From: Telopea speciosissima
Taxonomy: Eukaryota; Streptophyta; Magnoliopsida; Proteales; Proteaceae
NCBI RefSeq assembly: GCF_018873765.1
Contig: NC_057922.1
Coordinates: 17,993,563-18,057,562 of the forward strand
Length of the DNA stretch: 64,000 nucleotides
Direction of reading: 5' to 3'
The position numbers and the translations under genes were made by a program. Positions 1,370-60,811 of this stretch are shown piece by piece (within the stretch, counting starts at the first letter, position 1; every line of letters starts with the position of its first letter). Under the pieces are notes generated by a model that saw nothing but the letters and a program-made list of their open reading frames with translations, searched no databases and had not been told where the DNA came from.

Positions 1370-1378
1370 GCATCTCAA
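1370..1378. repeat. Target site duplication of the Pack-MULE, left copy
   Basis: GCATCTCAA here is repeated exactly at 6928-6936, directly outside the other TIR. The 9-bp length fits Mutator-like transposases. Confidence 0.85.
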
Positions 1379-1980
1379 GGATCCACATCCTCTACTTCCT
1401 CAGCTCTACTTCCATCGTACTTTCGTGCATCCCTAGCATGCCATGTGTCCTAACAACCATCCAACGGTGATTAATTAAAAAAATTCAAATTTTTTTGAAA
1501 TTCAGATTACATCTATTTGAACCACTTTAAACCTCAAACCAACTCCATCTAATCGGTTCAAAACAAACCAAACCGAACTTATCTCACTCAAACTAAACAC
1601 ATTTTACTCATTTGCCTAGGGTTTCAAATCGAACGAAAATTCCCTGCAGAACCTCTCTTGGATCCCTCCCTCTCTCACTCATCCCTCTCACAACTCTTCA
1701 GTGGCGACGGCGATGACGACGATGACGACATTCTCTCTCTCTCTCACAACTCCAAGGACTCTGAAAATTTTTAGAGGTAGATAAGTTTCGTGTAATCTGA
1801 GTTCTGAACAGTAAAAATCTACAAAACACAAGAGCTATTTGGAAAGAAAACAGCGAAGGAAGGCCAAGTCGTGAGCAAATCTGGCTGCTACTGCGATGGC
1901 GACGGCGACATCCTCTCTCTCACACTGCTCCTGCTGCTTTCCGGTGTACTCGCCCTAACCTAACTCTCGATCTCCCCTGA
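1379..1980 (+). repeat. Left terminal inverted repeat of the Pack-MULE
   Basis: It runs from GGATCCACATCC to the CTCGATCTCCCCTG region and is matched by the right TIR in inverse orientation. It contains CT-rich runs and GATGGCGACGGCGAC-type triplet repeats also found in the partner. Confidence 0.85.
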
Positions 1981-2184
1981 AACCCCACCCCCAATGAACA
2001 ATAGTTCTGAGATTATGATTTGAATATTGTAAACACCGATCGGGGCAGAGAAACAAGAACTGGGTTTGAGAGTATAGAGTTTGAATAGGAGGAGATCGAC
2101 AGCAGATCAAGGAAGGCGATTCACGATTTCTCTGTATCTCTCTGTATGGTATGGGGATTTTTTTTTTTTTTTGGATGAATAAGT

Positions 2185-2644
2185 ATGGGGATTATTAAGA
2201 AAGATAAGAGGAGTGATTCTTCTTCTTCAACATCTCCCTGTGCTCATCTCAGAGCTGCATATCACCAATGCTTCAACAGGTCAAATCTCAATCTAAATCT
2301 CTCTCTCTCTCTCTGTTTGCAGTTCTTTGATGAATGTTTCTGATATGATAAAGCAGGTGGTACTCTGAGAAATTCTTGAAGGGTCAGTGGGACAAAGAGG
2401 AACTCGTATCCGAGTGGCAGAAATACAGAGCTTGCCTTTCTGTATGTGTTTTTTTTTTTTCAAGAAAAAAAATTATATTAGAATGTGTTTGTTCTTCGCT
2501 GTAATTGAGAATTGGAATTGTGATTTTTTGTTAATTATATCTCTTCTTATCTTTCGTTCGTTTCACAGCAACATTTTTTAGGATAAACATCTCAGTCGTT
2601 TCCTTGGAGCCGAAGCTAATGTCTATACTCCTGAATCCTCCTGA
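2185..2644 (+). pseudogene. Captured Mdm35/TRIAP1-like (At4g33100-type) gene copy, broken
   Basis: Three exons are recognisable: 2185-2279, 2357-2441 and 2569-2644, with GT-AG introns. Exon 1 encodes MGIIKKDKRSDSSSS and then a CX9C motif (C-AHLRAAYHQ-C). Exon 2 encodes WYSEKFLKGQWDKEE and the second helix. The family (yeast Mdm35, human TRIAP1, plant At4g33100) comprises small twin-CX9C proteins of the mitochondrial intermembrane space that escort Ups/PRELI lipid-transfer proteins. Here the first cysteine of the second CX9C motif is replaced by leucine (EEL-VSEWQKYRA-C). Exon 3 meets an in-frame TAA five codons in, and a one-base frame change is needed to reach the family-like C-terminus ending TPESS. 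The copy lies inside the Pack-MULE, so it is a captured, decayed gene. 3' UTR-like sequence follows to about 3120. Confidence 0.8.
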
Positions 2645-3654
2645 CTGACTGACCCTAGATGAGATGATTCTATTTCTACCTAGGCAGCACTGTTGATGAA
2701 TGATATGCCGCTTCTTCCCAGAAAATATCGCAGGCGTTCCTTCGATTTAATCTGTTTTGCCCTACTTCTTGTTCTTAACTTTTTAGTTTTTTTCTCGGAG
2801 TTTTCTTAGCTTTGGAGGAATCTTGGAGGAATCAAGGAAGGAGTAAAGAATCAGGAATGGAGTTCCTTTAATGCCCTTCCTGCCATTGTTAGTCCTGTTG
2901 AAACTGATCAAAGTGTATCGAATTAAGCTTGTGAAGCAGCATATTCTGATACTCCAACAAATGTTATTATATAAAAGGATAAATTGATACATGAAACTAG
3001 AGGAGGATTAGAAAAATTCTTGTGGAATTTCTTTTGTGGAACTGTAGAACAAAAGATTTAAATGTTATACTGTAATTCTCTTATCCTGTTCAACTATTGA
3101 AATGAAATATATCCCAATCTCACGCCACGGTTCAAAATATCAGAATTATATCATGTAACCCAAATCGACCTCAGGCGATCCCTATTCAGGCTGATCCAAT
3201 CCAGTGAGTTTAGGCCTTTTTCGCCAATTATTTCCAAGATTACTTATGATTTTTTGGCAGAATACGGCCATTTCTCCCCAATTCCGATGAATCGAAACAT
3301 GAGTCGCTGATGGCAGAATTGAATCTAATGAAATGAAAGAGAGCCATGGAAGGTGTCTGAATTTCCTTCCAGGGACATGAGATGAGTGTGTAAGCTAGGA
3401 TAAGAAATGGGACTTTCATTATTTCATTGTTTGAACCACCCAAGTAAAACAGAGATTTCACAATTTCATAATGGCAGTTACCAGGTATTCTGGTTATTCC
3501 TGCATCACAAATCACTCTGGGGTAGGTAGCATGAAATATCTTTTGACATGGTTTCAACAAAACAATGATTTTTTCAAAGCTGTGGTATTTTGTATCTCAG
3601 TCGCCCAACTAAAACAGAGATAGAAGAGGGCAGTGTGAGTGTATGAGACGCCCT

Positions 3655-3845
3655 TCATTTCTTCTTGAATAGGAAATGTGCAACCATCCATTCTTCTCCG
3701 TTGTTATAACCGAAAAGCTCTGCCACTGAGATGAAGAATGTCCGCCAGTATGCAGTCCACTTAACAGCTGAATCTTTGCCATAAGTTGACTCCATTATTG
3801 GACTGATAGAAGTCATGTTCTGGTCCATTCTCAAGCCACTCCTCA
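3655..3845 (-). pseudogene. Captured last exon of a coclaurine N-methyltransferase-like gene
   Basis: The minus strand encodes ESTYGKDSAVKWTAYW, RTFFISVAELFGYNNGEEW and MVAHFLFKKK, then a stop. This is the characteristic C-terminus of plant coclaurine N-methyltransferase-like enzymes, SAM-dependent N-methyltransferases of benzylisoquinoline alkaloid biosynthesis and relatives. A splice acceptor (TTGCAG) lies just upstream at about 3846-3851, followed by intron-like DNA. The first codons after the acceptor read EEWL in one frame while the rest continues in another, so there is a small frameshift. Upstream exons with the SAM-binding fold are absent. About 400 bp downstream (to about 3240) may be captured 3' UTR. 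The fragment is antisense to the Mdm35-like copy in the same Pack-MULE. The family assignment is firm; the substrate cannot be inferred. Confidence 0.8.
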
Positions 3846-4399
3846 CTGCAAGACATCATGGCATTAGCTATACTTTTAAAAAATTGGATAGCAACAATAT
3901 TTGAGAACCTGAATGGAGATTTCAACCTATTGCACTGTTAGATTGAATGGTCCAATTCAATCATTAATAAAAAATCTCTCTTCTGTTAAAAGGACTAATG
4001 CATAGGTTTTGTAGAGTTCATTGTCCTTGTAAAATTAAAAAAGTTGGATTAGATATCATACCAATGAATCACTTGACAGTTCAACTAGGACACCCAAAAA
4101 GTGCAGAACTGATAGCAAGTTGTGAGAATTCAAATAGGAAATCGATTAGGGATTTGAGTTGAACATTTAGCAGTAAAAGGGTATTCAAAACATCAAATGA
4201 AATAGATTTTGAAAGTTAAGTTAGAAGGTTGAGTTGAACTAGGAAAACCAGACCGTTTACTATAACTTGGAGTTCAGAACAGAAACTGAAACTAGAAAAC
4301 TAGAAAGGCAAATCGAAATCAGAATATTGCAGAATTTTAACCAATAATCAGACTTTAAGACATTAACCAATTATCAATTTGAAACAAGACAGAAGAATA

Positions 4400-6330
4400 A
4401 AACCACAAGAGAAGAAGTTGAGATATTATAAAAAGAGAGATGGGTTAAAGACAGAACAGCAAACTAGATTAGGAATCCAATCAATTTGTAGGCTTAGAAT
4501 CCACAAGTGTGGTCTGCAACCACAGAACCAGAACTAAATCCACAGTACTTGAAGAAAACTTCAATAATATTACTCATAAATTCATGTCTGAGGTCATAGG
4601 CCACTACATCTATATATATAGAATTCATAAACTGAATCTTTTAACAGTCCTAAACTTCAGTAATGTTACTCATCAATCCAAGTTGTTTTATTTGGACTGT
4701 TTTTTTTGCTAAACTTCGAAAATCATGTTCTCTTTTTTTTCTCATAAAATGGCTGAAATTTTCACTAGGAAGCCTTGAGACCATGAAATGTTAAGCCTTA
4801 AACCAAGAAATCTGAACTAAAACCATTAAACTGTTAATTGGATCACACACCAACCCCTTCAACCTTGATCAAACACAAGGCAATCTTCTAGTTGCAGAAG
4901 ACAAACAACAGCAGCAGCTTTAATTTTCAGAATCGTGAGGTAAGAAAGAGACCCCCATACATAGCTTTATTAAATAGGCCAATAGGCCAACAAATCAAAG
5001 TCTGATTAGAGGTACGAAACCCCCTAGCTGATTTCACTTACAAGACACAACCTCCTCACATGCATGTAAGAAGTGTAGACCCAAGCAACTAACTATTGCT
5101 AACTTAAAACTTAGAATTAGAATAATTGCCAACTTAAAACTTAGAATTAGACTAACTTAAATTGAACCTGGTTCAATTAAACTAAACCAAGACAAAAACA
5201 TAATAAATAAACCAAGTATGAAAGCACATTAGGCCATGGATTGGCCCCCTCTCTTGGACTTTTTCCTTCGTGAGTATGTCTTCAGATTCGCATCATCTTA
5301 CCATTGTGGCGAGATCCGCCCTCTAAGCATTTCAATTTGTAAATGGAGTATTTGAGAGGAGGATAACAGAATATTCAGAGAGATTAGATGCCGTCCAATA
5401 TTCAAATATTTGTAACACTATTGTCATGGTCACTTGCTGATCTTTTTTCCTGCAATTTTTTTAACAAAAAGGATAGCCCAACAACCAGGCAAGGCCTTCC
5501 TCTCTATTTACCACAACTATAACAAAGAAGAAATGATAATAATAATAAGAAGAAGGGGAAGGATTTTGTGTATGATTGCCCTTGGCAATCATGCGGTTCG
5601 TCCTATAGGAGGGATGAGTTTTGCTGGAAAGCCAGGTCCATTGATGACAAACATGCAGATGAGTCTCAGCCTATGGATCCTTCAGAGCACAGTAAGGAAA
5701 AGAGCATAACTGTACTTTATGAATTTCTATTCTAATATTGCTCTGAATGAGGAATTGAAGACCACCACTTTCAAAAATATTTTCATAGTTCAAAATCTTG
5801 TTTCGGTAGGCCATTTCAGTAAAGATAGAAATGAGCAAAATATCGAAATCTATCGAAACAATGTATATTTTCCATCAGTTTCACTTGGCCATTTTGGGGG
5901 GCAAACGATTGAAATGAGTGATATTCTCAATCGAAATGCCTTAATTTTAAAAATGATACAAAAAGGGGATTTCTTAAACCAAAATGAGCGAATTTCTGGC
6001 CAAAATGAGCAAAACGAGCAATTTTTTGGTGAAAACAAGAGTAACAGAGAAAAAACTCAAAATACCTCGTATCAACAGTTGGAGACCTGGACTTGCTCCT
6101 CCAACTGCTAGCCTCCACTGTTCCTCCTTCGAATCAGGTAAGCGTTAGCTCCCGGACTCTCTCTTTCTCCGTTGTGTTCGTCTACAAACCCTAGTACCGA
6201 AGCCAATAGTTCACCAAGATCAGAGGATTTAGAAGACGAATGCAGCAAAAAAAACTCAGAGCAATGCCTCACCAAAATCAGAAGTTAGCAGGTGTCCTCT
6301 TCTTGCTAAAGAGAGTAATGATGCGGCTCA
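4400..6330. other. Unassigned Pack-MULE interior
   Basis: This stretch between the CNMT-like fragment and the right TIR is AT-rich. Around 5540-5720 one plus-strand frame reads KKKKKGKDFVYDCPWQSCGS followed by charged residues, which could be a third captured exon, but I do not recognise it. The open frame 5719-6111 is rich in N, E and Q and has no known motif. No transposase domain was found. Confidence 0.35.
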
Positions 6331-6349
6331 AGCTCCGTCAAGGGTGAGT

Positions 6350-6927
6350 AAGAGAGGAGATCGAGATTTAGGGTAGGGCGAGTACATCGGAAAGCAGTAG
6401 GAGCAGCAGTAGCAGGGTGAGAGAGAGGATGTCGCCGTCGCCGTCGCAGTAGCAGCCAGATTTGCTCACGGCCTTCCTTCGCTGGTTTTCTGGATTTTTA
6501 ATGTTCAGAACTCAGATTACACGAAACTTATCTACCTCATCAAAGCTACAGAGTCCTTGGAGTTGTGAGAGAGAGAATGTCGCCGTCGTCGTCGTCGTCG
6601 CCACTGAGGAGTTGTGAGAGGGATGAGTGAGAGAGCTAGGGATTCAAGAGAGGGGATTCAAGAGAGGTTCTGGGAAATGTTCGTTCGATCTGAAACCCGA
6701 GTGAAATGTGTTTAGTTTGATGGGAGATAAGTTCGATTTGGTTTGTTTTGAGCCGGTCAGATGGGTTGGTTTGAGGTTTAAAGTGGTTCAAATAGATGTA
6801 CTCTGGATTTCAAAAAAAATTGAATTTTTAAATAATCATCGTTGGATGGTTGTTAGGACACGTGGCACGCTAGGAGCGCATGAAAGTAGGATGGAAGTAG
6901 AGCTGAGGAAGTAGAGGATGTGGATCC
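6350..6927 (-). repeat. Right terminal inverted repeat of the Pack-MULE
   Basis: Its reverse complement follows 1379-1980 almost base for base, apart from short indels such as a duplicated CTCTCTTGAATCC unit and a shortened stretch near the inner end. It ends with GGATGTGGATCC at 6927. Confidence 0.85.
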
Positions 6928-6936
6928 GCATCTCAA

Positions 6937-12294: not shown

Positions 12295-13497
12295 GCTATA
12301 GCTATTTCCTCCACCATACATGACACACCTCTATATGCCCATATCCCAACCCAAGACCCAAATCCAAACCCGAGAGTTCCAAAAGCTTTTGACTTCTTAA
12401 GGAAGATAAGTATATATATATATAAGCCATACTTTATAGTTGTAATAATAGCAAATCTCTCATTAACCCAATCATCACACAAGAAAGACAACCGTTGCGC
12501 CCTACAACTAAAACATCTCTCCTCTAATTCAGACAAGGTCAAACCAAAACCTAAACCCAAGGCCCCCACCACCACCACTTCCACAGGCCCACCCTATACA
12601 AACAGAAGCAGCCGGCACGACCTACACCGTGCGACGCGGTTTACAGTTTATTAATAACCTTAAAACCTCCACAACACAAATTAAACAAAAAAATACCCAG
12701 AAAACCCACTTAGTGGTAGACTTGTTATTCCACTCAAAGTTCTTGAATGAATCTTAAATTCTGAATCTAATCCATTAATATCATTATCTATCTCTCTCCT
12801 CTGTTTTTTTTTTGATAAAGATCTCTCTCCTCTGTCTCTCATCTGTCTTTCACTTTCTAAACTCTTAAAATAGCAAACTCCATTAACGCCACCTTACCCG
12901 TTTTTTGATTATCCCTCCAAATGGTAGGGCTGACAGTAGTTGTAGGAGATGAACCCGGGACTTGACCGATGCGTTGAAGCCTTGAAATCTAAAAAAAAGA
13001 AAAAAAGAAAAAAGGAAAATTTAAAATTTATTAAAAAATAAAAAATTAAAGAAAAAATAACAGAAAAATCTGAGGGAAAAAATCATTCACAAACGTTTGT
13101 TTGTTCATTGGTTCGAAAAGAAAAAGCCACTTCTTGGTTCCATTGCACTTTTTGCTTTCCCGTTAATCAAAACAGCAAAATTTGTACGACCCAGAAAAAA
13201 ATAAACAAAACGCTTGAGTTGAGATACCCAGAGACCCAATTCGCAGAGCAAACGCAGAATGAAATACTGAAACAACATTCAATGCAAGCTGGAAAGAGAG
13301 AGAAGGAAGGGAGAGATTTACAGCAGAGTTTGATTCTTTCATGAACGTTGCATTGTTAGAATCTATCTCTGAATTGGGTTTCCTCCTCTGATGTCGTCCA
13401 CGGCTTTTCTGTGTTCTTCGATGTGGGTGATAGGAGAAGGGATTCTGTGAATGAAATGACGATGTGAGGAGAAGCAGCGAAGTGAGTATTTGTAAGA
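12295..13497 (+). promoter_or_regulatory. Upstream region and presumed 5' UTR of the PIP5K gene
   Basis: This AT-rich stretch ends at the PIP5K start codon. It contains a TATATATATATAAG run near 12412, CT-rich runs (about 12790-12850) of the kind often found in plant 5' leaders, and short upstream ATG frames (for example 13108-13344). The transcription start is not determined. Confidence 0.35.
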
Positions 13498-16400
13498 ATG
13501 AGCAAAGAAGGCGGTGGCGTGACGAAAGCCTGGGAAGCAACGGTTAGGAAGTCACAAGCGGCTGTGAGAAGGCGAGGGACGAGCTTTTTCACAGCAATGT
13601 CAGTAGCCCATGTCGACGACGACGACGGAGGTGATGGCGCCCCCGGCGAGGTCTACCACGCAGAGCGAGTCCTCTCCAATGGCGACTTCTACACAGGCCA
13701 GTGGTTAGAGAACGTCCCTCACGGCCATGGCAAATACTTATGGACCGATGGGTGCATGTACGTTGGCGAATGGTGCAGAGGCAAAACCATGGGCAAGGGC
13801 AAATTCAGTTGGCCTTCAGGGGCTACCTATGAAGGCGAATTCAAGGGCGGTTACATGGATGGTAAAGGCACCTACACGGGCTCAAGCGGTGACACCTATA
13901 GAGGTTCATGGGTCATGAACCTCAAGCATGGCCAAGGCACCAAGCATTACGCCAATGGCGATTACTATGATGGTGAGTGGCGCCGTGGCCAACAAGATGG
14001 GCATGGCAGGTATCAATGGAAGAATGGCAACCATTATATTGGACAGTGGAAGAATGGTGTGATTTATGGCAATGGAACTCTGATTTGGGCTAATGGGAAT
14101 CGATATGATGGGTTTTGGGAAGATAGCTTGCCTAAAGGGAATGGTACTTTTAGGTGGATCGATGGGAGCTTCTATGTGGGTACATGGAGTAAGGACCCGA
14201 AAGAACAGAACGGGACTTATTATCCTTCCGCAGCCTCACCGACCGGGAATTTCGATTGGGATCCTCAGAATGTGTTTTCTGTTGATTTGAGTGATTGTAA
14301 GATTTGTCCTGGTGAGAAGGTTTCGATTTTACCCTCCCAGAAGGTGCTGAATTGGGCTGGAATTGAGGCGGATCTCTTGCAGAAGCAGCCGACATGGAAG
14401 TTAAAAAATGTCGATGCCGGAGGAAAGCCAAGGAGGATGTCCGTCGATGGCAGGATCAATAATGTCGGCGGAGATAAGGGGTTTGATAGGTTCTGTATTT
14501 GGGAATCAGATGGGGACATTACTTGTGATATTATTGATGCAAATCAGATGGGAGGGAGAGAAGTGGAGGATGGGTTGGGGGCTCTCCAGCTTGAAGATAC
14601 AGAGACCTGGGGAACAAAGGTACAGACTCCGAGGTTGCTACCCAGGGAAATGAAGAAGCAGGGTCAGACAATTTCTAAGGGGCATAAGAATTATGAGCTC
14701 ATGCTCAATCTGCAGTTGGGGATCAGGTATTAACTGATCCAGTAACCCTTTTTTTTTCTGTCCTTTTCAGAGAAACCTCTGTTCCCTGTTCTGTTATTCT
14801 TCTTCTGTTTTTACTCACCCTTTTGTTTTAATTTTTATTTATTTTGTTATATTGTATGCTTTGATTTCTGTTGTCTTTCTGTTTTTCGTTTGTTTTAGGA
14901 CTGTTTTGGGCCTATAATATTTTTAAAGAGGATTTTTAGCGGAGGTTGATGGAATAGCTGAAACCCATCATCAATAAGATTTCCTTTCTTATATGCTGAC
15001 CAAATGGTTCAGTTTGTTTGCGGAATATAATCCTGTGGCCTGCGGGTTGTGGAAGACCTAGTGCGAACAGTAGAGGAAAGACTTGGAACTATTCAGTCAA
15101 TTCATTCCCCTGTTTCCAAACTCAATGATTGAATACATGCCATCAGTCTGATGTCCTTTTTCTTTTCTTTGAATCATGAAATCATCAATTACTGGATAAA
15201 ATTACATACTATGAATTTCTATTGTTCTCTTTTATTTTCCTTCCCCATGTTGTTTTCTTCCTTCATGTTGGCATTGGAAGTATTCGTTGCTCTTGTTCCC
15301 TTGTTCACATATATGAGACAAGTCATTGGAATGCCTTATCTGATCCTTCCGCCATTTCCCTTGTTTTCTCTCATTTGCTAATCAAAGGGAATAGTGCTTT
15401 CACTAGTAGAATGTTTTGGTTTTTTCACTTCATCGGCTTTTGGAAAAGATTGTAATCATTCTACTGTTAATGGAACAGTTTCTGTTTATATTCTTAGTCC
15501 TCCTTATTATGGATACAATATCACAAGAACTAACAAGGGTGGCTATAATTTCTTTAAGCTGCTAGTAATATGTTTAGATCAATACAGTCCAGAACTTTAT
15601 ATGACAGAAATTTTGGAGGTTTTCCTGCATCACCAGCCTCCCATCTATTAATTTGGTTTTAGTTCTGAGAAAATTTGATAATTTTCAGCATTTCTGCTCT
15701 TTGACATAATATCTTGAGATCAAAATTCTATCTCCTGATGCCAAGTTTTTAACCTGCTAATAGGTAAAAACAATTTTATTACTTATCACATCTCCACCAT
15801 TCAAGTGGTACTCCAGTTTTCAGGCTGTTCCAATCCCAAGTTCTTGCTAGGAGTTGGTTAAGTCGAGATTCTTCTGAGACGTCCTTCCTTGCGTTGTCAC
15901 TTTAGTAACCAGAGCTGCTTGTAGACTTTATGTAGAGCCCAGCCATACCACATAGCTTGACAGCAGATAAGGCAGATGGAAAGTCACTGGAGGACCAACC
16001 ACTTTAACAAGTTTGAAGGATTTACCATTTTCATTTTGAAGCTTTTTTTTTTTTGGGGGGGGGGGGGTGGAGAAATATACTTGAAGAGGAATTCAAAAAT
16101 TTTTCATTTTCGTTCTCAGATCCTCTAATGATCCTATTTGTTTATATCTGATGCCTCTGCTTGCTTTCTCATTTGATCACTCTCTGTATAACATGTAATG
16201 TGATTGAACAGGCATTCCGTGGGAAAACCTGCACCAGCTACATCCCTTGATCTGAAAGCTTCAGCATTTGACCCCAAGGAAAAAGTCTGGACAAAGTTCC
16301 CTACTGAGGGAAGCAAACAGACGCCGCCACACCAATCTTGTGAATTCAAATGGAAGGATTATTGTCCTTTGGTTTTCCGGTAGGCCCGGACATTTATATT

Positions 16401-21929: not shown

Positions 21930-24900
21930 GGTAAAAATCTTTGTAGATCATCTGCGAGACATTTTCACATTCTGATCATCTTGAATGGGGCTACCTTCAA
22001 GGCCTTTTTGAATTTTTAGGTTAATAACTTGTGATGTGATTTGATTGGCTGTCTGGTGTCTCTAATGTACCTAGCTTATTAAAGCTCAAGGGTAGTTCTT
22101 TTGATCCCTTTGACCCTCTAGAGGTGTTAGGCAAGGTTGCCGGCCGCTCAGTCCCTACTTGTTTATCATAGCAATGAAAACCCTTTTCAGATTATTGACA
22201 CCATGCCGCAAATATAATATTTTTTTAGGGATTAAGGTTGCTATAACTGTTATAGAAATATCCCCTTAAACTTTTTTGTAGATGATATTTTCATCTTTTA
22301 TAGAGTCTTTTCTGGATGATATCTCCACCATCCATGCATATATTCAAGTTTTTTCAAGATTTGATTAGCCAACAAGTTAATTTTAATAGGAGTTGAGTAA
22401 AAATACACCTCCGATTTTGAGAAGCCAAATATGTCGAGCTTTAGGAGTCATAGAAATTGATAGCCAAGCTCCATAAACACAGTTCTCAATCAGGAATCGA
22501 GCCAGCCCATCGGTCCGAGGCAGTGGATTCCTCCGCCAAATGGTCATTTTAAGCTCTACTGTGACGCAGCTTTGCCTAGAGATTGAATCCAAAGGTGGAA
22601 TTGGTTTCATTATAAGAGATGCTCAAGGTCATATCCTCCAAGCTGTATCGGATCCAGTAGCTATGAATGACATTCTTATGGGCGAATCCATGGCAGTTCG
22701 AGCAGGTCTTTTAGCAGTCGCAGAAGCTGGACTGAATCACATATTGGTGGAATCTGATTGCTCAGCCTTGATCTCTTATATCACTAATGCTCGTCCTTCT
22801 CCTGTCTCCATTGGAAGCTTCATTCATGACATCTGCTGTTTGGCTGATCAGTTTAATTTTATTTCTTTTCATCATGTTTCTAGGGATAGGAATCTTATTG
22901 CCGATTCCCTAGCTCGAAAGGCCTTATCCTCTGTAAATAGGATAAATTGGCTAATTTTCAATCCTTGGCTCTTGGATCTTTGTAACTAGGATGTCTCGAG
23001 TGTTACTTGCCTTACCTATCAATAAATTCTCTTTCAACCAAAAAAAAAAAGAAAGAAATTGATAGCAAATTTCTTCAGGAAGCTTTAAGCTCCACCTGCC
23101 TCTATTAAAAAAATTGATTGCAAATCTGTTTTTTCCCCCAAGCTAAGAGCCTAGCTTTGAATCACATTTTAATAGAGAGCAATCAATACTGATGAGTTGA
23201 AAAATTCCATTTCTTTCTCAAACTGGTGGATCAGTGCCTACTGCAATTTCTACCTGTATGATGTCTTGTTTTTTGTTTATTCTTAAAGTCTATTAATCTA
23301 TTATACATTAGAATCTATTAATGCCAGTTTATGGAGAGGAGATTTTCAAGAGAATTAAAGACTCTCGTTCCATCGATCCATACTTGTCAAACTAAGGCCA
23401 ATGGGGGTCTTGGTTTTCGGTTTAGCTTGGATCATAATAAAGCTGATAAGTGCGTGAATAATTTAAAAAAAAAAAAAAAATAATAGGGATGAGTTTGGCT
23501 TAATTAGGAGGAAGCCGATCCTCTTGACTTTATGGAAAAAGTCATGCCTCTTTCTCAATAGAAAACTTTTAGAGATTCAATTCAGATTCATTCACTTCAT
23601 ATGCACCAAGTAGTTATAAATCCTATGACTCCTCCACAAAACCATCCATATAAAACATAACCTCAATTATCTTTTAACTCCCTCCCATTAGTTATACATA
23701 AATAACTAATAATAACTAAAATCTTAATTATTAAAAATATCCTAATTACTAAAATAAAGACACGTAACATAAGCCTTGCTCATTCACCCAAAAAAAAATT
23801 AAACATAAGCCTTGCTCCTTAAGCTTAGCTAGAGGCTCTTAACCATTCCATCAGCCTTGTGGACCAAAATATTTTCTTCGTACCAATTTATTGGATGTAA
23901 AGCTGTCTATTAAGAATGGATCCTGGATAGGATATGGAACAATATCAAATAAACTCTATCTATCAATATTTGGAATGATTCTTGGATTTCTAGTTTATCA
24001 CATTTCCATATCCCATCGCCTGTTTACTCCCAATCTTGCCTTTTCCAAGGTTGATGAGCTTATATGTAATTGGGCCTGCAATTTTAATCTTATTTATTCA
24101 ATATTTCCCCACTTGATTGCTGAATCGATTTTGAAACGCCTCTTATTAACTCCTCATCAAGGCTTCTGGATTCGCTCTGATACTAAATCTGGTTTTCGGC
24201 CGATCAAAATAGAAATACGGGGCAATTTTATCTCTCAATCTTGCAACACTTGCAATGACATCAGTGCCAACAAAAAAATATGGAAATTTATCTGGAAATT
24301 ACAAATCCATCCAAAATTTCGGTTATTTTTATGGAGAGTTTTAGTTGGTGGGGTACACACCAGAGGTAAACTATCTTGGTTTATTATTAATATTATTTTT
24401 TTTTGGCGCGAATCTTGGTTTATTAATATGGACACTTTTTGTGTTTTTTGTTCATCTGGTAATGAAACTGACTAGAATTTGTTCCTCGCATGCCCCATCT
24501 CCAAAAGAATTTGAGCTGCAAGTCCTCTGGGGCTAAGAATTGAGTTCCTTCAAGCTCCTACAATCTTTGATATCTTTCCTTAATGAATCATCTTTCACTC
24601 GAAAAGATTAAAGATTAATGTTATCAGTAACATCCATTATTTTTATTTTATTTGGTCTGCTCGCAACTACTCTGTTTTAACCATGTACCTCCTAACCCTT
24701 TTATCATTATGTCTAAAATTATCAGATTGATACTAGTATGCGAATCTATAATTGTCTCCTCCCACCCCGTGGTAGCATCCACCTTACATTTCCAGTTTTT
24801 AATGAAGCTGTCCACTACTGATCTCTCATTCATCATCTGTGATGGGAGCTATGATCATAATACTTGAGAGGATGGTTGATCTTCTGTAATATTTTTTGAA
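21930..24900 (+). mobile_element. Degenerate L1-type LINE ORF2, plus strand, interrupted
   Basis: Plus-strand frames give DHLEWGYLQGLFEFLG (about 21980), SRGVRQG and LSPYLFIIAMKTL (about 22130-22190), then FFVDDIFIF (about 22270), the RT catalytic motif. After an inserted younger LINE (22465-23053) the ORF resumes. ANGGLGFRFSLDHNKA lies near 23400, is cut by about 370 bp of unrelated DNA, and resumes as KALLLKLS near 23810. SINIWNDSWISSL follows, then the zinc-knuckle region with KIWKFIWKLQIHPKFRLFLW (about 24265-24335). This is the normal order RT, connector, zf-RVT of plant LINEs. Many stops make it nonfunctional. Confidence 0.65.
22465..23053 (+). mobile_element. 5'-truncated LINE 3' end with RNase H domain, poly(A) and 13-bp TSD
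   Basis: The insertion is flanked by AGAAATTGATAGC at 22452-22464 and 23054-23066 and ends in a poly(A) tract (about 23039-23050), the hallmark of target-primed reverse transcription. It encodes WIPPPNGHFKLYCDAALPRD, then, after a frameshift, GGIGFIIRDAQGHIL, ILVESDCSALISYI and RDRNLIADSLARKAL. This is an RVT_3-type RNase H domain with the D-E-D-D pattern largely visible, ending at a stop at 22987-22989. The host DNA is the older LINE. Confidence 0.8.
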
Positions 24901-34992: not shown

Positions 34993-37173
34993 TCAAATCA
35001 TTGTTTTGATTGATTCTTCACTGTCTATAATTATACTCTCGAGGCATCGCACTGCATGGGTTTTATAATCTTTGTTGAGCTGCTTTAGTAGTGCACTGTG
35101 CGTACATGAATCAGGCTCAATCCCTCTCTCCAGCATTTCACCATACAACCTCAAAGCTTCATACCACTTACCCAAATTGCAGTTCTCATTACTCAGTAAA
35201 GTGTAAGTATATTTATTGGGCGACAGCCCTTTCTCCTCTATCTCTATAAAAAACTTGTAAGCTTGATCCACTCTCCCCACTTTGCACAAACCATTTATCA
35301 GAGCATTATAGGTGATCACATTTGGCAATACACCCTTCTCTTGCATCTCTGAGAAGAACTTAAAGGCTAGTTCAAGATTCCCTTTACCAGCATGTGCATG
35401 AATCAACAGTGTATATGTCACAACTGTAGGAGACGAACCTCTACTTAGCATCTCATAAAAAACCTCCCTAGCTTCCCTGAGATGGCCACTCTCCAAACGA
35501 GCCTGAATAATACAAGTATATGTCACATGATCTGGAACTAGCCCATCTTCAACCACTCTTTGCAACAACCCATATGCTTCTTCCAAATTGCCCAATTTGC
35601 AGAGTCCATCAACCAAAACATTGTAAGTGATCATGTTAGGTGGGAAACCCTTCGCTAGCATTTCTTCTTGCAAACTAAATGCCTTATTTGAATCACCAAA
35701 CTTCAGCTCTCCAACTATTCGGGTTGTATAAGCAAAGCCATCTGGCTGCAATCCCACATGTAGCATTTCATCAAAGAGTTCCTTAGATATTGCTAAATTT
35801 CCCAGTTTCAAAGAGCCATTCACTAAAATAGTGTAAGTGAACACATCTGGGAGAACTCCCTTATTGATCATCTCTTCCTTGAGTTTTTGCGCACCTTCGA
35901 AGTCCCCCAATCTGCAAAGGCCATCTATAAGTGTATTATATGTAACTACAGTAGGAATGAGCCATCCATTTCTTAGTTCATCAAACAATAGAAAAGCTTC
36001 TCTTAAGTTTCCTACTCTACAATACCCATGAATTAGAGTGTTATACGACACTATATCGGGCTCCAAATTGTTCTTTAACATGTTGGAGAACCATTCCCTA
36101 GCCTTGACCATTCTTCCCCACTTGCAGAACCCATCAATAAATGTGTTACAAGTTTCAACTGTATGAGAGGCACCTCTCCGCACCATCTCACTCCCAATGG
36201 CTAAAGCCTCAACAATGTTGCCCTTCTTAAAGTACCCATGAATCAAAGGATTATACGTCAATGCTGAGACCTTCAACCCCAAGTTCAGCATTTCATTAAT
36301 CAAACCCTTGGCCTGGTCTACCTCTCCTTTTTTTGACAATCCATTGATCAAAACATTATAAGTTACATCATTGGGGGCACACCCTCTCTCTTGCATCTCC
36401 GACAGTAGGTCCAAAGCTTCTTGCAACTCACCTTCCTTGCAGAAAGAGTCTAGCAAGGTGTTGTAAGTAACAATTGTCGGCTGGATACCAAACTCGCCCA
36501 TTAGTTTGTAAATCTCTCTTGCTTTGCTCACAAGATTTTCATCTCGAAGAACCCGGAGGAGTCGGTTACAATTTTTCACATTTGGGCATATCCCATGTTG
36601 CACCATCTTATCAAAAGTTGATAAACACAGCTCAGTCAAGGATCCTTTGGTGTAAACCAACAATAAAACATCAAGGAGCTTAATCAAAGCCTCCGGACTC
36701 AAGTACCCATCAACCAAAGCATCCACAATTCCGTGCAAATTCACACTAATTACCCTCTGCATCACCCAGTAAGCAGATCGCATAAGATTGTTCTCAGCTA
36801 GAATCTCAAGAATGACACAGAAAGCAAATTCAGAGTGTTTGAATTCGGGTTGACTCTCTGCCCATTTAAAGAACCTCAACGCGATTCTAGGTCTCCGTCG
36901 GATCGATTTAAGGACGCGAACGAACAACTCCGGGTCAAGAATTACAGCACGGAATCGATCGGAGAGCCAGAAACCATGCATAAATGCGCATGGGTTGCGG
37001 TCGAGGGTCTCAGATACCAGGTTGTCGTAGTGGGTCTCTGAGAAAGCATTGTCTTTGGAGGTAGAGAAATGCAAAGAATAAGCGATGGGGAAGAAAAAAC
37101 GAACCTTAGGAAGGCTTGCGATTGTTACAGTGGCAAAGGTTCTCGAAGCTCTAAAACAGAGGGCCATTAGCAA
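34993..37173 (-). CDS. P-class pentatricopeptide repeat protein, mitochondrial, At1g22960-like
   Basis: A single uninterrupted 726-codon exon, as is usual for plant PPR genes. The N-terminus (MLMALCFRASRTFATVTIAS) is rich in R, S, A and T without acidic residues and looks like a mitochondrial presequence. From about residue 190 to the end, tandem 35-residue P-type PPR motifs follow one another (for example PTIVTYNTLLDSFCKEGELQ, PDVFTYTILVNGSLKLGNL, PNKYTYTLLSNENCNLGKWY), about 15 in all. No E, E+ or DYW domain is present, so a role in RNA stabilisation, splicing or translation is more likely than editing. The length and the C-terminal repeats resemble Arabidopsis At1g22960 (about 718 aa). The RNA target cannot be predicted by eye. 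I see no break. Confidence 0.93.
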   Translation of the reverse strand: MLMALCFRASRTFATVTIASLPKVRFFFPIAYSLHFSTSKDNAFSETHYDNLVSETLDRNPCAFMHGFWLSDRFRAVILDPELFVRVLKSIRRRPRIALRFFKWAESQPEFKHSEFAFCVILEILAENNLMRSAYWVMQRVISVNLHGIVDALVDGYLSPEALIKLLDVLLLVYTKGSLTELCLSTFDKMVQHGICPNVKNCNRLLRVLRDENLVSKAREIYKLMGEFGIQPTIVTYNTLLDSFCKEGELQEALDLLSEMQERGCAPNDVTYNVLINGLSKKGEVDQAKGLINEMLNLGLKVSALTYNPLIHGYFKKGNIVEALAIGSEMVRRGASHTVETCNTFIDGFCKWGRMVKAREWFSNMLKNNLEPDIVSYNTLIHGYCRVGNLREAFLLFDELRNGWLIPTVVTYNTLIDGLCRLGDFEGAQKLKEEMINKGVLPDVFTYTILVNGSLKLGNLAISKELFDEMLHVGLQPDGFAYTTRIVGELKFGDSNKAFSLQEEMLAKGFPPNMITYNVLVDGLCKLGNLEEAYGLLQRVVEDGLVPDHVTYTCIIQARLESGHLREAREVFYEMLSRGSSPTVVTYTLLIHAHAGKGNLELAFKFFSEMQEKGVLPNVITYNALINGLCKVGRVDQAYKFFIEIEEKGLSPNKYTYTLLSNENCNLGKWYEALRLYGEMLERGIEPDSCTHSALLKQLNKDYKTHAVRCLESIIIDSEESIKTMI

Positions 37174-37849
37174 AGGATCTCAGGAGAGCTTGGTCTCTTC
37201 TGTTTTCTCTTTATTCTATGTTTTTACGCCAAAAAATGGAACAAGAGAAACTCCCAACAGTTTCAGAATTCAGTACGGCTGTTGCAATACGGAATCCTCC
37301 ATTCAATCGTTCTACCGGTCTCAACCTCCCAACGTTTCGAAAATCTCTCTGTGTCTCTGATAGATTCCACCAAGCACTTGGCATCTACCAAAAGCTGCAG
37401 AAGAGCAGATACCCAAAATAGGGTTTCCGCTCGTTCTCGACTGGCCAAGACGGCTACGTTCATCCCCTCGGAGCCAGAAGTTACCTTATTCCTCTCCTCC
37501 GACCTCCGATGACTTGAGACCAAGAGTCCAAGACACCAAAGAGGATATCATTGGTCCGGACAATCGGGCCGACCCGGCACCATTTGTCCAGCTCCACAAT
37601 CAGGCTTACGTGGGTCAAGTTCGGGCCAAACCAAACAAATCTTCATGCTTGTGGATTGTGGTAGAGACCTAGTCCCACACACCCACCTGTTTTTACCATC
37701 TGGACAGCTGATGGGGCCATCTCTAACCATTGGATATAAAGGTCATTATCCGGATTAACCACATGTCAACTTTTAGAGATTCAAGGTCACACTTGATCCA
37801 AGACTTAAACGGTCATTCCTCATCATTTCTCCTAAGATCATTTTAGGTT
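37174..37849. other. Upstream flank of the PPR gene
   Basis: Presumed 5' leader and promoter of the minus-strand PPR gene, with CT-rich segments. The short open frames on both strands (37218-37523) have no recognisable motif. Confidence 0.35.
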
Positions 37850-38892: not shown

Positions 38893-41800
38893 TTAGGAAA
38901 CTCTAACTTCATTAAGTTCAACTTGTGCAACAGCTGCATTGATTGCATCAATGACTTCCATCTTCCCCCTGCTTACTGCTTCATCCATTGGAGTCTTTTC
39001 ATAGCTAGCCATACACCCAAATGAAAAACATTAATGAAAAGGAGTATCTTACATCTAAATCTTTATCTGAAAAAATAATATTTCTAGTTGAAACTCTGGT
39101 TTCCAGGTTAGAAAAAACAGACCTGTTTAGCATTGTTACATTGGCTCCTGCTAGAATCAAATTCTTAACCACCTGGAAAACCCATTTGTTCAATAAACTT
39201 GTATGAAGAATCAAATTGACTGCCATAACCTGGATAACACCAATACCTCAATATGCCCGTTGAGGCAAGCCCAGTGAAGAGCTGTATTTTTCTCCACATT
39301 ACAAGCATTTAGATCCTGCATCATAGAAAAGCAACAAAATCCGGGTTCATTCATGAATTCTGTTTCAGATGTTTAGTTTATCAAGACACACCTTCCACAT
39401 CTTTCAAAAAAAGAGACATCTTCCATTATGGCACTTGGGACAAGGTACAGTTAGTGTTTCTTTGGGGTAATTTCTTCCATAAAAGAACAAGGCAACCAAT
39501 CCTCTCTATACAACCCACCTCTGTTTTAGCTTCCACATGCCCTGTCAGAACCTCCAACTAGAACCATATCAACCTGTTCTTAGTATGCCCATGGACCAGA
39601 AGCATGCACAGGTTGACAAGTTCACTTGCACGCCCACTACACTAGATCCATTTCGGTAGAGAGAACTAGTTGGCTATAGCTTACCAATATTAAAGGCACT
39701 GAAATGGTTATTTATAGAGTCTGTGGAGCATGACAATGGATCAACTCAACTCACACAAAATGTTTTCTGACAAAAACATCTTAGTGAAAAAGACAATTTT
39801 GGGCAATCAGGGCTTACCATCAAGTGTCCAGTGCAGCCTGCTCGCAATCTTACATTATATTCTTTTCCAGAAATTTAATTCCAAGAAATCCAAACTTGAC
39901 TTTAAGGGGTTAAGGTATGAGTATATAAATATCATTATCTGTTAGAAAGAAGACATGTCGCTGACCCCACTGAGTTGGGGCAAGGCTGAGTTGAGTTGAG
40001 TTGAAAAAAAAGACACCTAGATAACCTACCAAGAATATGGACTCCCAAGAACAGATATGACATAAGGTAAACAAAAGTGCCAATTGAAAGAAAATACAAG
40101 AAATCTTCACGAGAAGGCTTCCTCACCACTCCATTTTTTATAAGATACTCCACGATATCAATATGTCCATTAGCAGCTGCCATATGAAGTGCTGAAAGCA
40201 CAGATGATAACAACAAAATTAAACAAGGAACTAAATCATGAAATGTTAACCATTACATTACTGTTGTATAACTACAGGAGAAAAAAATCATATCTTCCCA
40301 AACATGCTTGCAATTGGTTTGGAGTTACAGGAGTAGAGACCAAGTGAGAGAGCAGCAGAAGCACAACAAAGTATTGAAAATCTTAGGTTCAGCGAGAGAT
40401 TTTTTTTAAAAAAAAAAGAAGCATTATTTCCATCATATCATAGCCCATGGTTATTTAAAACGAGAAAATTTCACCACTTGTATACCACTAAAGGATTAAT
40501 AGCAAATAAGATATGCATTAGGAAGAGATCAACCACAATCGGCAGCCAACCAAACAACTGGACTGAAGCCCCAAAAGCAATATTAAGAGAAAGGATAAGT
40601 ATCAGTACCAACAAACAGCTCGTACTGAGATTACAACCATTGACTAGCCCTAGTAACCATATCTGCACACCATTTTTTTTTTGGTAGAAATATCTGCACA
40701 CCGTGAATCCTATATCCATATCATAAGAATAGGATGTAGGATTGCAACAAGCAGTCAATGGTGGAAACCTGGAGTGGCCCTCGACCAGTTTTAGTGAATA
40801 CAAAGTGGCTCAGTTGGTCAACAAAACCATTAAACTCATTCGGGAACTGCTTTCATGAAGCAGGTCGACGAAACTTTCAGAAAATATAAGTGCCGAGGTT
40901 GGGATTTAATACAACATTTTGGTGTGTATTGAGTTGATTTGGTGAACCAGGCCAGATCTCACAACACTAACACACTGTTAGAAGTCATGTAATAGGGGTA
41001 GTTTAGGAACTAGTCTATAACTAGTTGCCTTATTATGTAATTCTTCTATTTCTTCTTTATTTCCCTTATACCTCCCTAGGGAGGTGGATGTAATTCCTAT
41101 TAGTGATGATTAAATGAATATATGGTGAATGGAGAAGTCTCTCCATGCACAATCGTTACAGCCCAATACACTCTTCTCTCTTGCCATCTTCTTCTTCCTC
41201 CAACCTCTTCCTTCTCTCTTCTTATTTCCTAAACCTATATTCTAACTTGGTATCAAAGCCCTAGGGTTTGAGAGTCGAATCCAGCTACCTGTTCTCATTT
41301 TTTGCTTCTCTTTGAAATCATTTATTTCAAAGAGAAGCCTCCTATGTAAACAAATCTGTGAGAAAACTATGAAATAGGGTTGGAATAACCTTTCTAGTGA
41401 TTCCTACTGCTATTCGAGCTTGGATGCAGCTCATTTGGTGATTTAAAGTTCAGATTGCTACTGTTTGGAGTAACCGCCAGCCCTCCACTGCAGTTCCTAT
41501 ATCTCCTTCGATTGGCCTGGTTTTGTGGATTGGAATGGGTCATTAGAATCGTGGAAGGATGGTGTTCAAGGGCCATGTACTGCTTCTTGCTGATTGAAGA
41601 CTACATCTGAGCACAACTCTTTTTCGTGGGAATCATTTTCTGCCCAGATTTCTGATGTTGCAGACTTCATTCCCTTATGTCTTTCTCATTTCGGCATGGA
41701 TTTGATGGTGGAGCAGCTTATTAGGATCGTAGAAGGATCCTTTTTCCTGTCTTTTGTGCTCCTTATGGCTGGATGAGTGCTTCTCTTTGATAAAACTCAA

Positions 41801-44800
41801 TCTCATGGTTCCTCTGTTCTGCCCAGGTAACACCGAGAGTAATTTTCTTCCTTTTTTTTCTTGCTTCGAGTTGAAGGTTGATGCTCTCTTAGTTGAGGAT
41901 TGGATATGCATAGACTTTGAGCAGTTTTATCACTTGTTTGAAGCTTTTATTACTACTTGCAAGCCTTTGTGAGGCCTTTTTAGGGACTGACCTACTGGGC
42001 TGCTATTATACTGCCCGTGAAGTGTTTGATTTAAGTCCTCTTAGACATTTGCTGCTAGGACTGCTTCGGCAGTGTGCTATCCTAGGCTGCTTATAGGACT
42101 TCTTGCTTGTTTGGGTTGAGTGTGTACTCCCCACTTGCCTTTGGTGATATTGTTTATTGTTGGTATCCATCATGGCTGGTTCGGATACATCTGTGCTTGG
42201 TACTGCTGATTCTCAGCCTCCCATTGTTGTCCCTCAGTTGGCTTATGAGAGTACTCATCAACAGATTTCTTTTGTGAAGCTTGATGGTACTAATTACCTG
42301 GATTGGTCACACTCTGTGAGACTTTCCCTCAGGAGTAAGGGAAAGCTTGGATATATAACAAGTGCTATCAAGGCCCCCACGGCTGGTTCACCGGCCTTTG
42401 ATAAATGGGAGACCGAAAATTCTACGGTTATAACTTGGTTGATCTTCTCCATGAAGCCCGAGATTGGGAGAAGATTTATAAGGAAGGAAACTGCCAAAGC
42501 TATTTGGGACAATGTCTCTGTGGCCTTTAACAGAGTAGGTGACACTGCCAAGGTCTATTAGCTCCATCAACGAATCCACTCATTGAAACAGGGTGACAAC
42601 ACTATTTCTGAGTACTACAGTGCGTTCCTTAGTCTTGTGGAAGAGTATGATCATTACAGAGACCTTCATTTGACCAACCCAGAGGATGAAGCCAAGGTGT
42701 ATCTGACTCTTGAAAAAGAGCGTGTCTTCTCTTTGCTTGGTGGTTTGAACTCTGACTATGAGCCAGTTAGACTCCAACTGTTGGGCCGGTCTCCCCTTCC
42801 CTCTCTTAGTGAAGTCTGTAGTTACTTACAGAGTGAAGAGACCAGGAGACTTACTATGGCACCACCACCAGCACCATCTGAGAGGTCAGCCCTCAATTCT
42901 AGTTCTGTTCCAGACACCCGTGGAGGTGGTAGAGGCCCAGGGCCTAACCGTGAGGAAGCTAGTATTGTGGCGACAGTTGGTGCCAGTAGAGTTAGGCGAG
43001 ACAAATTTAAATGTGATCATTGTGGTCGCATTGGACACACCAAGGATAGGTGTTGGTCTCTCCATGGTCGTCCTCCTGGTATGCGTGGTCGTGGTAGCTG
43101 TAGAGGGGGAGCTCGGGCTCATTCCGCAGCGGCGACTGATGCTGATGCCCCACAAGATGACTCGACCTTTATGGATGCAGTGGTTCGCAGGGTTGTATCA
43201 CAGTTGAGCACATCTAGTATGGCTGGATCCTCATCATCCTCAGCTTTGCAGGTCTCCACCTCAGCTTCCACTGCCGCCTAGTCTTGGGTCATTGACTCGG
43301 CTGCCACGGACCACATGACTGGTACGTCTCATTATTATGATTCCTATACCATTTGCTCTGGTAAGGACAAGGTTAGGGTAGCTGACGGCTCCCTTTCCTC
43401 CATATCTGATAAGGGTAATATCCCTATGACATCATCTATTTCACTTTCTTCTGTTCTTCATGTCCCTAACCTTACTCTGAATCTTCTATCTGTGAGTCAT
43501 CTGACTAAATCTCTCAACTGCTGTGTCACATTTTTTCCTTCTCATTGTCTTTTTCAGGATTTGGTGACGAAGAGGATTATTGGTAGTGGACGTGAGGAGA
43601 AAGGCCTCTACTTTTTTAATCCGTTTTTGCCCACAGTTCATTCCTATGTGTGTGGCCAAAACGATAGTAGTTCTGTGGATTCTGTTATGTTATGGCATCG
43701 CCGTCTTGGCCATCCATCTTTTGTTGTAATGAGGAAACAATTGCCTCACTTATTTTCATCTATTGCCTCTTCTCATGTTTTTCAATGTGAAACCTGTATG
43801 TTTGCCAAACATTATAGGTTGTCATATCCTTATCATGGTAATAGAACTGTTGCTCCTTTTCACATTGTGCATACTGATGTGTGGGGTCCTTCCCCTACTA
43901 CTTCTTTATTTAGCTATCGTTACTTTGTGTCATTTGTTGATGATTTTTCACGTGCCACATGGACTGTTCTTCTAAAGCATAAGAGTGATGTTTGTGATGC
44001 CTTTCAGAATTTTTACCAAATGATTCTTACCCAATTTGAGACCTGCATCAAAATTGTGCATTCTGATAAAGGGGGAGTGTATATGTTTGGTGGCCTTCAA
44101 GCCTTCTTTACTACTCATGGCATTATCCATCAGCTAGCGTGTGTTGACACGCCCCAACAAAATGGGGTTGCTGAGAGAAAAAATCGCCATCTCCTAGAGG
44201 TCACCCGTAGTCTCTTGCTTGGCATGCATGTCCCCCAGACCTTCTGGTCTGCGGCTCTTCTAACAGCCTCCTTTCTCATCAATCATATGCCTACCAAGCT
44301 TCTTAACTACAAATCTCCCTTGGGCATCTTATCTCCCAAGGCCTCTGTTTTTTCTCTTCCTCCTAGAGTCTTTGGTTGTGTTTGTTATGTGCATGTTAAC
44401 AAATCTGCTCGCACTAAACTTGATCCCAAAGCTCTTAAGTGTCTCTTTCTTGGGTACTCTTCTACTACCAAGGGGTACAGGTGTTATCATCCTTCTTCCC
44501 ACCGAAGTTTCATTTCCAAGGATGTTACCTTTCTTGAATCTGTCCCTTTCTTTGTTCTTTCTCAGCATCCTCTTCAGGGGGAGAATTATGGGAGTGAATA
44601 GGCTACTGATGATTTCTTCCTTTCTCCTATACCTACATCTCCTTTTCTGCTTGACATTGGAAAACACAGGACTGTAGATGTGGTTGAGATTAATGATCAA
44701 CTAGGGGGGAATATAGATTTGGTAGTTGAAAGTGGTTCTGGTAAGGAGAAGGATTACCACATTACATACCAAAAAGGTGAAAGCTTACATAATACAAGAA

Positions 44801-47800
44801 AGAAGACTTACCAAGAGTCCTCTTCAGATCTAGATCCACATCCTGAGATTCATCCTTCTCAATCAGGTGACATTCTTTCTCCTCCATCTGTTTTGGACCT
44901 TCCTATTGCTATTAGGAAAGGGAAAAGAACTTGTACCAATCATATATCCCAGTTTATTTCCTATGATGCAATTTCTCCTACAGGACTTGCCTTTATTTCT
45001 CGCTCTTTCTCTGCTTCCATTCCCAAGAATGTCATTGATGCTATATCGACCCAAAGGAGACAAGCCAGCCTTCGAGGAGATGATGGCACTTGAGAAGAAT
45101 GGTACTTGGCAACTTGTTGACCTTCCCAAGGGACGTGTCCCGATTGGATGCAGATGGGTCTACACAATCAAGTATAAATCTGATGGCAGTATTGAGAGAT
45201 ACAAAGCAAGGTTGGTGGCCAAGGGGTACAGTCAAGTCTATGGAATTGACTACCAGGAGACATTTGCCCCTGTGGCCAAGCATAATTCAATAAGAGTTCT
45301 TTTATCCTTAGCTGCCAACAAAGATTGGCCCTTATATCAGTTGGATGTGAAGAATGCCTTCCTTTATGGTGATTTGGAAGAGGAAGTGTACATGCAAACT
45401 CCATCAGGCTTCAAGATGCCCTCAGCTGAAGGGAAAGTGTATCTCCTTAAGAAGGCTCTATATGGTCTCAAACAGTCACCAAAGGCATGATTTGAGCGCT
45501 TCCGACAGGCCATTCTGAAGAATGGATATTCCCAAAGCCAAGCTGATCATACTCTCTTTACCAAGCGGAGTAATGGTACTATCACAGCTCTCATTGGCTA
45601 TGTTGATGATATCGTGGTCGCAGGAGATGATACAGGTGAGATAGGTAAATTGAAGAGCTACTGGCACAGCAATTTGAGATCAAAGATCCGGGTCCTGAAG
45701 TACTTCTTAGGAATAGAAGTATCAAGGACGAAAGGGATCAACATATGTCGAGGAGGTTTACTCTTGACATTGTTGACAAAGACAGGGATGTTAGGTGCAA
45801 ACCAGCCTAGCTCTCCTATTGAGCGAGAATCATAAACTAGGAGAGGATTGTGGTCCCTCTCTTGTTGATGCGGGGAAGTATCAAAGGCTAGTGGGGAAAC
45901 TTATCTATCTCTCTATGACTCGGCCAGATATCTCTTATGCAGTGGGAGTTGTCAGTCAATTCATGCATGCTCCCAAGAGTGGCCATTTGGATGCTGTGTA
46001 TCGCATTCTAAGGTATTTGAAGTCCTCTCCAGGGAAAGGATTGTTGTATGCAAGGCACAACCACTTGAGAGTGGAAGGCTTCACAGATGCCGATTGAGCT
46101 AGTTCCATTACAGACAGGAGATCTACCTCCGGCTATTGTACCTTTGTGGGAGGTAACTTAGTCACATGGAGGAGCAAGAAACAGCATGTTGTGGCCAGAT
46201 CTAGTGCAGAGGCAAAATTTAGAGCTATGGCACATGGAGTGTGTGAGCTCATCTGGCTGAAAAGACTTGTTCAAGAACTGGGATTTGACATTGAAGGGCC
46301 CATGAGACTGTACTGTGACAACAAGGCTGCCATCAGTATTGCCCACAATCCTGTGCAACATGACCGGACTAAGCACATTGAGGTTGATAGGCATTTCATC
46401 AAGGAGAAGATAGACTCTAGTTGTATTTGTACTCCTTTTGTGAGGACTGGGGATCAGTTGGCAGATATCTTCACCAAAGCTCTTGGCTCTCCTCAGTTTA
46501 GTTCCTTCCTAAGCAAGCTGGGAATGCATGATATATTTTCTCCAGCTAGAGGGGGAGTGTTAGAAGTCATGTAATAGGGGTAGTTTAGGAACTAGTCTAT
46601 CACTAGTTGCCTTATTATGTAATTCTTCTATTTCTTATTTATTTCCCTTATACCTCCCTAGGGAGGTGGATGTAATTCCTATTAGTGATGATTAAATGAA
46701 TATATGGTGAATGGAGAAGTCTCTCCATTCACAATCGTTGCAGCCCAATACACTCTTCTCTCTTCTCTCTTGCTATCTTCTTCTTCCTCCAACCTCTTCC
46801 TTCTCTCTTCTTATTTCCTAAACCTATATTCTAACTCACACACCCCCCCAAAAAAAAGTTTGACTCTGATTAGATCCTTAGCGCAAGCGCTAAGTAGCAA
46901 GCTACCTTATGTAATGTAAAAAAAAAAAAAAACGATGAGCATAGCCGTCAAGTAGATTCAGACAGAAAAGCTAACATAGATGTTATGGATCTAAATTTTT
47001 TGAATTACATTCATGACTTAGATCAGGGAGTCTATCCATCTTCCATAAAGGAGCCGAATGAAATCAAAGCTCCCCCCCCCCCCCAACAAAAAAAGTCCTT
47101 TAAGTGCTTTCTGAGGATAAAAGATGAAACTGGCTGGCCCAATTAAAGTCCAGATACTTAGAAACCATTACTTTCTTATTATTAGCACTCTATTCAAAGC
47201 GCCCCCACCCCCCAAAAAACAAAAAAAAAAAGTCCTTTAAGTGCTTTCTGAGGATAAGAGATGAAACTGGCTGGCCCAATTAAAGTCCAGATACTTAGAA
47301 ACCATTACTTTCTTATTATTAGTAGTCTATTGTAAATCTTCAAGATGGAGTTTAAGAGGATCCTCAAAACACCATGTCATCAGAAAAGTACGTTGTTTCT
47401 AAGGCCCATCTCAAAACCAACACTTCAAATGAATACCAATTATAAATCATGACTCCCTTCCAAAGACAAGTTCCATAACTAGTTTTAACCTTGTTCAGCC
47501 TTCCAAAATTAACCAATCCATTTTTTGTGCCACCACAGTCCTCCAATGACTCATATCATCATTCTTCACAGCCATTTGTACAGCAAAGTTTTTTCCCCTG
47601 AGGAATCCTTTGGTTTCCCAATCCTCCATGTGCTTTTTCTTGAAAGAAACCCCAATCTACTTAATCATATTTCTGGACTTGAAAACCAATCCCCAAAGAA
47701 AATCACACCTCTAACTCCGGTATCGTAAGAAGAGGAAGAGAGTACATTTGGTGACTAGGCACCTAGCCTATTTTGAGATTTTGATTTCGACTTGGGTTTC

Positions 47801-56155: not shown

Positions 56156-56382
56156 AAAATGGATTTGAAAAAAGGGTGTGAGAGATTAAAAAATTAATTA
56201 AGTTTTAAATTTTTAATTCACAAGTTTGTGGATTTTTTTTCTTGTCAAATGGCAAACATTGGTGGATCCATTTGATAGGGTGGTATCCATCTTATTGTTT
56301 AAAAAATATCTTAGTGTTCAAGTTTCAGCCATCGGCAAATACATGAAGCGCCTAAAAAGGAAGTTAAAATGAATGTCAGAAT

Positions 56383-60744: not shown

Positions 60745-60811
60745 GGCAGCGGTATCTACACGTCACGAGAAGAAATGATATTTAATTATATCCCGGGGTA
60801 CGGGTATAACA

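Follow-up and report, generated by a model that had tools for sequence, protein, structure and literature searches.

Mutator-like elements (MULEs) create target site duplications (TSDs) of 9-11 bp and typically have terminal inverted repeats (TIRs) of 100-500 bp (PMC3310237). Those that carry host gene sequence, the Pack-MULEs, have been reported to prefer GC-rich sequence, and the mechanisms suggested for them include gap filling and fork switching (PMC8277862). Here we describe an element of 5,549 bp, located at 1379-6927 of a 64-kb stretch of Telopea speciosissima DNA (the window, taken from contig NC_057922.1). Its anatomy is probably that of a non-autonomous TIR Pack-MULE, with MULE membership indicated by the TSD and the arm length, and its cargo, an Mdm35/TRIAP1-like gene copy and the 3' end of a coclaurine N-methyltransferase (CNMT)-like gene, was probably acquired in a single capture.

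At its ends the element carries inverted arms, 600 bp long on the left and 575 bp on the right. In the alignment of the left arm with the reverse complement of the right one, identity is found at 511 of 551 aligned bases (92.7%); the 40 mismatches comprise 25 transitions and 15 transversions (Kimura two-parameter distance 0.077), and 14 gap runs cover 73 columns. The arms have a local score of 773, whereas 200 shuffles reach at most 32 and 287 random inverted pairs drawn from the window at most 37, and BLASTN pairs the arms with an E value of approximately 1e-177. The inverted similarity is far above chance. The arm divergence was left unused as a measure of age, because MULE arms may differ already at insertion. 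Within the window (both strands), the 12-base tip GGATCCACATCC occurs solely at the two ends of the element, and the 9-bp sequence GCATCTCAA is present only as the two copies that each abut a tip. For one fixed pair of sites and equal base frequencies, such a perfect direct repeat is expected by chance with a probability of approximately 4e-6. A previous sequence-only reading of this DNA had proposed a Pack-MULE with inverted termini of about 600 bp, identical tips and a perfect 9-bp duplication; each of these structures is borne out, and together with the host gene cargo they make the class assignment right by anatomy. Inside each arm, a GAC-rich/CTCTCTC motif is duplicated (1715-1741 and 1895-1921 on the left; 6417-6453 and 6565-6601 on the right), with copies that are 81% and 86% alike, so that the long TIR has an internal duplication of its own.

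The element thus combines a TSD within the 9-11 bp range on both sides, long TIRs, and host gene sequence, namely a UPF0203/Mdm35 copy and a CNMT last exon. No transposase domain was found in the 27 Pfam-scanned open reading frames (ORFs) out of the 73 of at least 40 amino acids that overlap the element, and a MULE transposase would presumably have moved it. BLASTN detected no further copy of the element or of its parental genes in the 64-kb window, where alignments outside the element's own span covered at most 33 bases (E 0.007 or worse). The terminal 21-mer is absent from the viral_contigs and genome_contigs collections, as expected for a plant element. The features of the locus are listed in the table.

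Table. Features of the Pack-MULE-like element and its flanks (window coordinates).
Feature	Position	Strand	Evidence
Left 9-bp target site duplication, GCATCTCAA	1370-1378	.	Exact match; found just twice when both strands of the window are searched
Left terminal inverted repeat, 600 bp	1379-1978	+	Alignment to inverted right arm; blastn
Mdm35/TRIAP1-like exon 1, first CX9C motif	2185-2279	+	Pfam UPF0203, Mdm35 structures, GT donor
Mdm35/TRIAP1-like exon 2, Leu replacing the first cysteine of the second motif	2357-2441	+	Alignment to chain 4ytw; splice sites
Probable Mdm35/TRIAP1-like exon 3	2569-2644	+	Splice acceptor, translation
CNMT-like last exon with stop codon	3655-3845	-	phmmer to 6gkv; tblastn
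Remaining element interior, possibly last CNMT intron or other captured DNA	3846-6352	.	tblastn (6gkv and L001 proteins); Pfam scan of some ORFs
Right terminal inverted repeat, 575 bp	6353-6927	-	Arm alignment; blastn
Right 9-bp target site duplication, GCATCTCAA	6928-6936	.	Exact match

The plus-strand cargo was identified with a hand-joined peptide of 80 amino acids, which served as query for both the Pfam and the structure searches. It matches Pfam UPF0203 with 67.2 bits (cut-off 27), and its closest solved relatives are Mdm35 chains (E 2.3e-10). Both matches stop at residue 61 or 62, so that the support they give applies to exons 1 and 2 (60 amino acids). Two introns of 77 and 127 bp, with GT..AG borders, separate the exons. 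Exon 3 lies outside the database matches; it presumably resembles plant homologues, and this likeness and the splice acceptor make it a probable third exon. If this assignment is right, the copy is complete from start to stop. The spliced frame of exon 3 terminates after QHFLG, while the neighbouring frame reads DKHLSRFLGAEANVYTPESS and then a stop; the likely C-terminal sequence in another frame points to a probable frameshift. In addition, alignment to 4ytw places a Leu at the first cysteine of the second motif, so that the twin CX9C cysteines of a functional Mdm35/TRIAP1 are incomplete.

On the minus strand, the CNMT-like exon matches 6gkv with a phmmer E value of 1.5e-14 and is immediately preceded by a splice acceptor AG at 3846-3847; no Pfam family was assigned to its 66-residue peptide. 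SEEWL and RMDQNM lie in separate frames where 6gkv has a continuous NEEWLKRLDAN, and the CNMT-like copy is for this reason probably broken. No further CNMT exon was recognised in the element by tblastn with the 6gkv chain and a full-length Acinetobacter plasmid homologue. The 2.5 kb upstream of the exon may represent either the final intron of the CNMT gene or other captured sequence; the evidence for a CNMT intron is the splice acceptor. The sequence-only reading had placed an Mdm35-like gene copy on the plus strand and a CNMT-like last exon on the minus strand, both with intron sequence: identities, strands and the Mdm35-like introns stand, and for the CNMT intron there is the acceptor.

No third captured gene emerged from the Pfam scan of 27 of the 73 ORFs, none of which scored above a curated cut-off; matches to C1q, S_100 and Adipogenin were below their Pfam cut-offs and were dropped. 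The plus-strand ORF at 5523-5735 has a C2H2-like stretch, YDCPWQSCGSSYRR; it matches transcription factor IIIA weakly (E 0.04) and no Pfam family. We did not accept the transcription factor IIIA hit; the ORF is a possible third captured fragment. Extra captured pieces in 3846-6352 may be missed, because Pfam and the PDB are weak at detecting plant-specific fragments. Two tandem copies of 30 bp, 93% alike, are found at 5095-5155. Rfam, at gathering thresholds, gave 0 matches in the window.

The Mdm35-like and CNMT-like copies lie tail to tail, with their stop codons 1,010 bp apart. We take At4g33100 of Arabidopsis to be an Mdm35/TRIAP1-like protein, and LIME1 and LIME2 (At4g33110 and At4g33120) to be CNMT-like. 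Arabidopsis locus numbers that are ten apart usually denote neighbouring genes. The literature describes At4g33110 as LIME1/FUFM1, an S-adenosylmethionine-dependent methyltransferase, and At4g33120 as LIME2 (PMC10940516, PMC12712439, PMC12589721, PMC8079945); papers that name At4g33110 speak of a methyltransferase, and the word "coclaurine" is absent from the two examined for that term. In mango, LOC123200613 is annotated as (S)-coclaurine N-methyltransferase-like (XM_044615890.1) and LOC123200614 as Uncharacterized protein At4g33100 (XM_044615891.1); the two follow one another among the genes listed for a single locus, and both their locus numbers and their transcript numbers are consecutive (PMC11814187). 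Among the literature searched on gene neighbourhood, this is the only paper with both gene names. Mango (Sapindales) and Arabidopsis (Brassicales) belong to separate rosid orders.

By analogy with these genomes, the cargo is most likely one captured block of neighbouring genes, made up of the Mdm35-like gene and the CNMT-like 3' end. We favour a single capture because it explains the tail-to-tail layout more simply and because CNMT-like and At4g33100 genes are consecutive in mango. The retention of two introns with GT..AG borders argues for capture at the DNA level. A MULE would accordingly be envisaged to have taken up, as DNA, a contiguous host stretch in which the Mdm35/TRIAP1-like gene lay tail to tail with the CNMT-like gene next to it, of which the 3' end was included; the element would then have inserted at its present site, creating the 9-bp duplication, with transposase presumably supplied in trans from elsewhere, and the captured copies would have decayed after insertion. 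Taken as a whole, a TIR Pack-MULE with a single contiguous capture, trans-mobilisation and later decay is the best explanation, and one that we hold with reasonable confidence.

Several points weigh against it. The GC content of the interior (36.9%) is slightly under that of the rest of the window (38.8%; the arms have 43.7% and 46.6%), contrary to the GC-rich bias of Pack-MULEs, and the arms are slightly longer than is typical for MULEs. The status of the two genes as neighbours in T. speciosissima is carried over from mango and Arabidopsis and presumes that At4g33100 is Mdm35-like, and the comparison with these species concerns gene order alone, without strands. Finally, a second, different capture may lie inside 3846-6352, given that 191 bases of CNMT exon are followed by 2.5 kb of upstream sequence.

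This last point bears on the proposal that two unlinked genes were captured separately, the Mdm35-like gene and, through another event or through template switching, the CNMT-like 3' end. The 2.5 kb past the CNMT exon without a recognised CNMT exon would fit with such a history, as would the documented existence of Pack-TYPE elements with DNA from several loci (PMC8903248). However, both gene types are consecutive in mango and also, with identities that are partly presumed, by Arabidopsis locus number, and neighbours would rarely be drawn by two independent captures, so that we consider this origin unlikely. The sequence-only reading had described the cargo as fragments from two unrelated genes, which is probably wrong given the side-by-side mango genes.

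If the cargo is one block, it could also have been acquired by macro-transposition, in which the native pair of genes lay between two related MULE insertions, whose outer ends then moved along with all the intervening DNA. The arms show 40 mismatches in 551 aligned bases, as well as 14 gap runs, as two distinct copies would, and the contents of Pack-TYPE elements are said to be determined by neighbouring insertions (PMC8903248). On the other hand, unequal arms are ordinary, with 87-95% outer-arm identity in six tomato Pack-MULE entries (PMC3310237), and BLASTN within the window revealed no inner TIR remnant in the element. Moreover, the source copies of plant Pack-MULEs are stated to be unlinked with MULEs, which PMC8277862 holds against an end-bypass model. 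This version of a single capture thus appears improbable, and we are similarly doubtful that a conserved adjacent gene pair was lifted as a multi-kilobase block, in its native order and orientation, via two neighbouring elements and not by patchwork filling. The present data do not discriminate among gap filling, fork switching and macro-transposition as capture mechanisms. That the arms are an unrelated inverted-repeat or foldback structure with a chance duplication would agree with the absence of transposase from the 27 scanned ORFs of the 73 and with no autonomous relative having been seen, but is highly improbable considering that the perfect 9-bp repeat exactly abuts both tips and that the arm score far exceeds those of the controls.

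Returning to the single-capture Pack-MULE, the Cys to Leu replacement, the CNMT frame change and the probable exon-3 frameshift suggest that both captured copies are probably pseudogenes. Promoters in Pack-MULE TIRs can express internal regions (PMC3310237). If the arm promoters fire here, we predict that transcription from the left arm would yield sense RNA of the Mdm35-like copy followed by antisense RNA of the CNMT exon, whereas transcription from the right arm would give the CNMT exon in sense and the Mdm35-like copy in antisense orientation. The source genes could in principle be affected by antisense transcripts or small RNAs, as reviewed in PMC8277862. The locus also matters for how captures are counted: numbers of multi-gene Pack-MULEs may be inflated when neighbours that were taken up together are each counted as a capture of their own, and the element offers an example for checking multi-gene captures against gene order as well as a clean test locus for capture models. 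Were the macro-transposed block true, it would be a readable case for distinguishing these models, and its two arm promoters would transcribe a gene and its neighbour from opposite sides.

The remainder of the window contains further mobile elements and genes. A Copia-type retrotransposon with gag_pre-integrs and rve domains occupies 40976-46836, with direct repeats (40976-41247 and 46558-46836) that are 95.7% alike. Direct repeats at 56381-56602 and 62357-62578, 95% alike, enclose an ORF on the minus strand whose match to RVT_2 is weak and under the cut-off, and the span 56381-62578 is likely a decayed Copia element. RVT_3 (RNase H-like) ORFs at 22477-22989 (plus strand) and 54436-54870 (minus strand) are probably the remains of non-LTR (long terminal repeat) retrotransposons. 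The plus-strand ORF at 13486-14733 has six MORN repeats and presumably resembles the N-terminal part of PIP5K. Two PPR genes are located at 34993-37179 (minus strand) and 50599-52598 (plus strand); the latter has E and DYW domains in the ORF at 51027-52598, and its coding seems to shift frame from the ORF at 50599-51234.

Compared to the Pack-MULEs of rice, tomato, maize and Arabidopsis, as described in PMC3310237 and PMC8903248, the element shares the 9-bp TSD, the long arms and the host gene sequence, and likewise has no transposase in its scanned part. It differs in size, since tomato Pack-MULEs peak at 1.0-1.2 kb (PMC3310237) compared to 5.5 kb here, in carrying most or all of a small gene together with part of a probable neighbour, and in an interior that is not GC-rich. 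Animal Pack-TIRs, for which gap filling and fork switching are proposed, also hold host DNA between TIR element ends (PMC8277862), but the present element has the TSD and arms of a plant MULE. Multi-locus Pack-TYPE elements likewise contain sequence of two annotated genes in one element (PMC8903248); in contrast to those, the two genes here are probably adjacent, so that one capture is enough. The element belongs to an already known class and is ordinary apart from one instructive detail.

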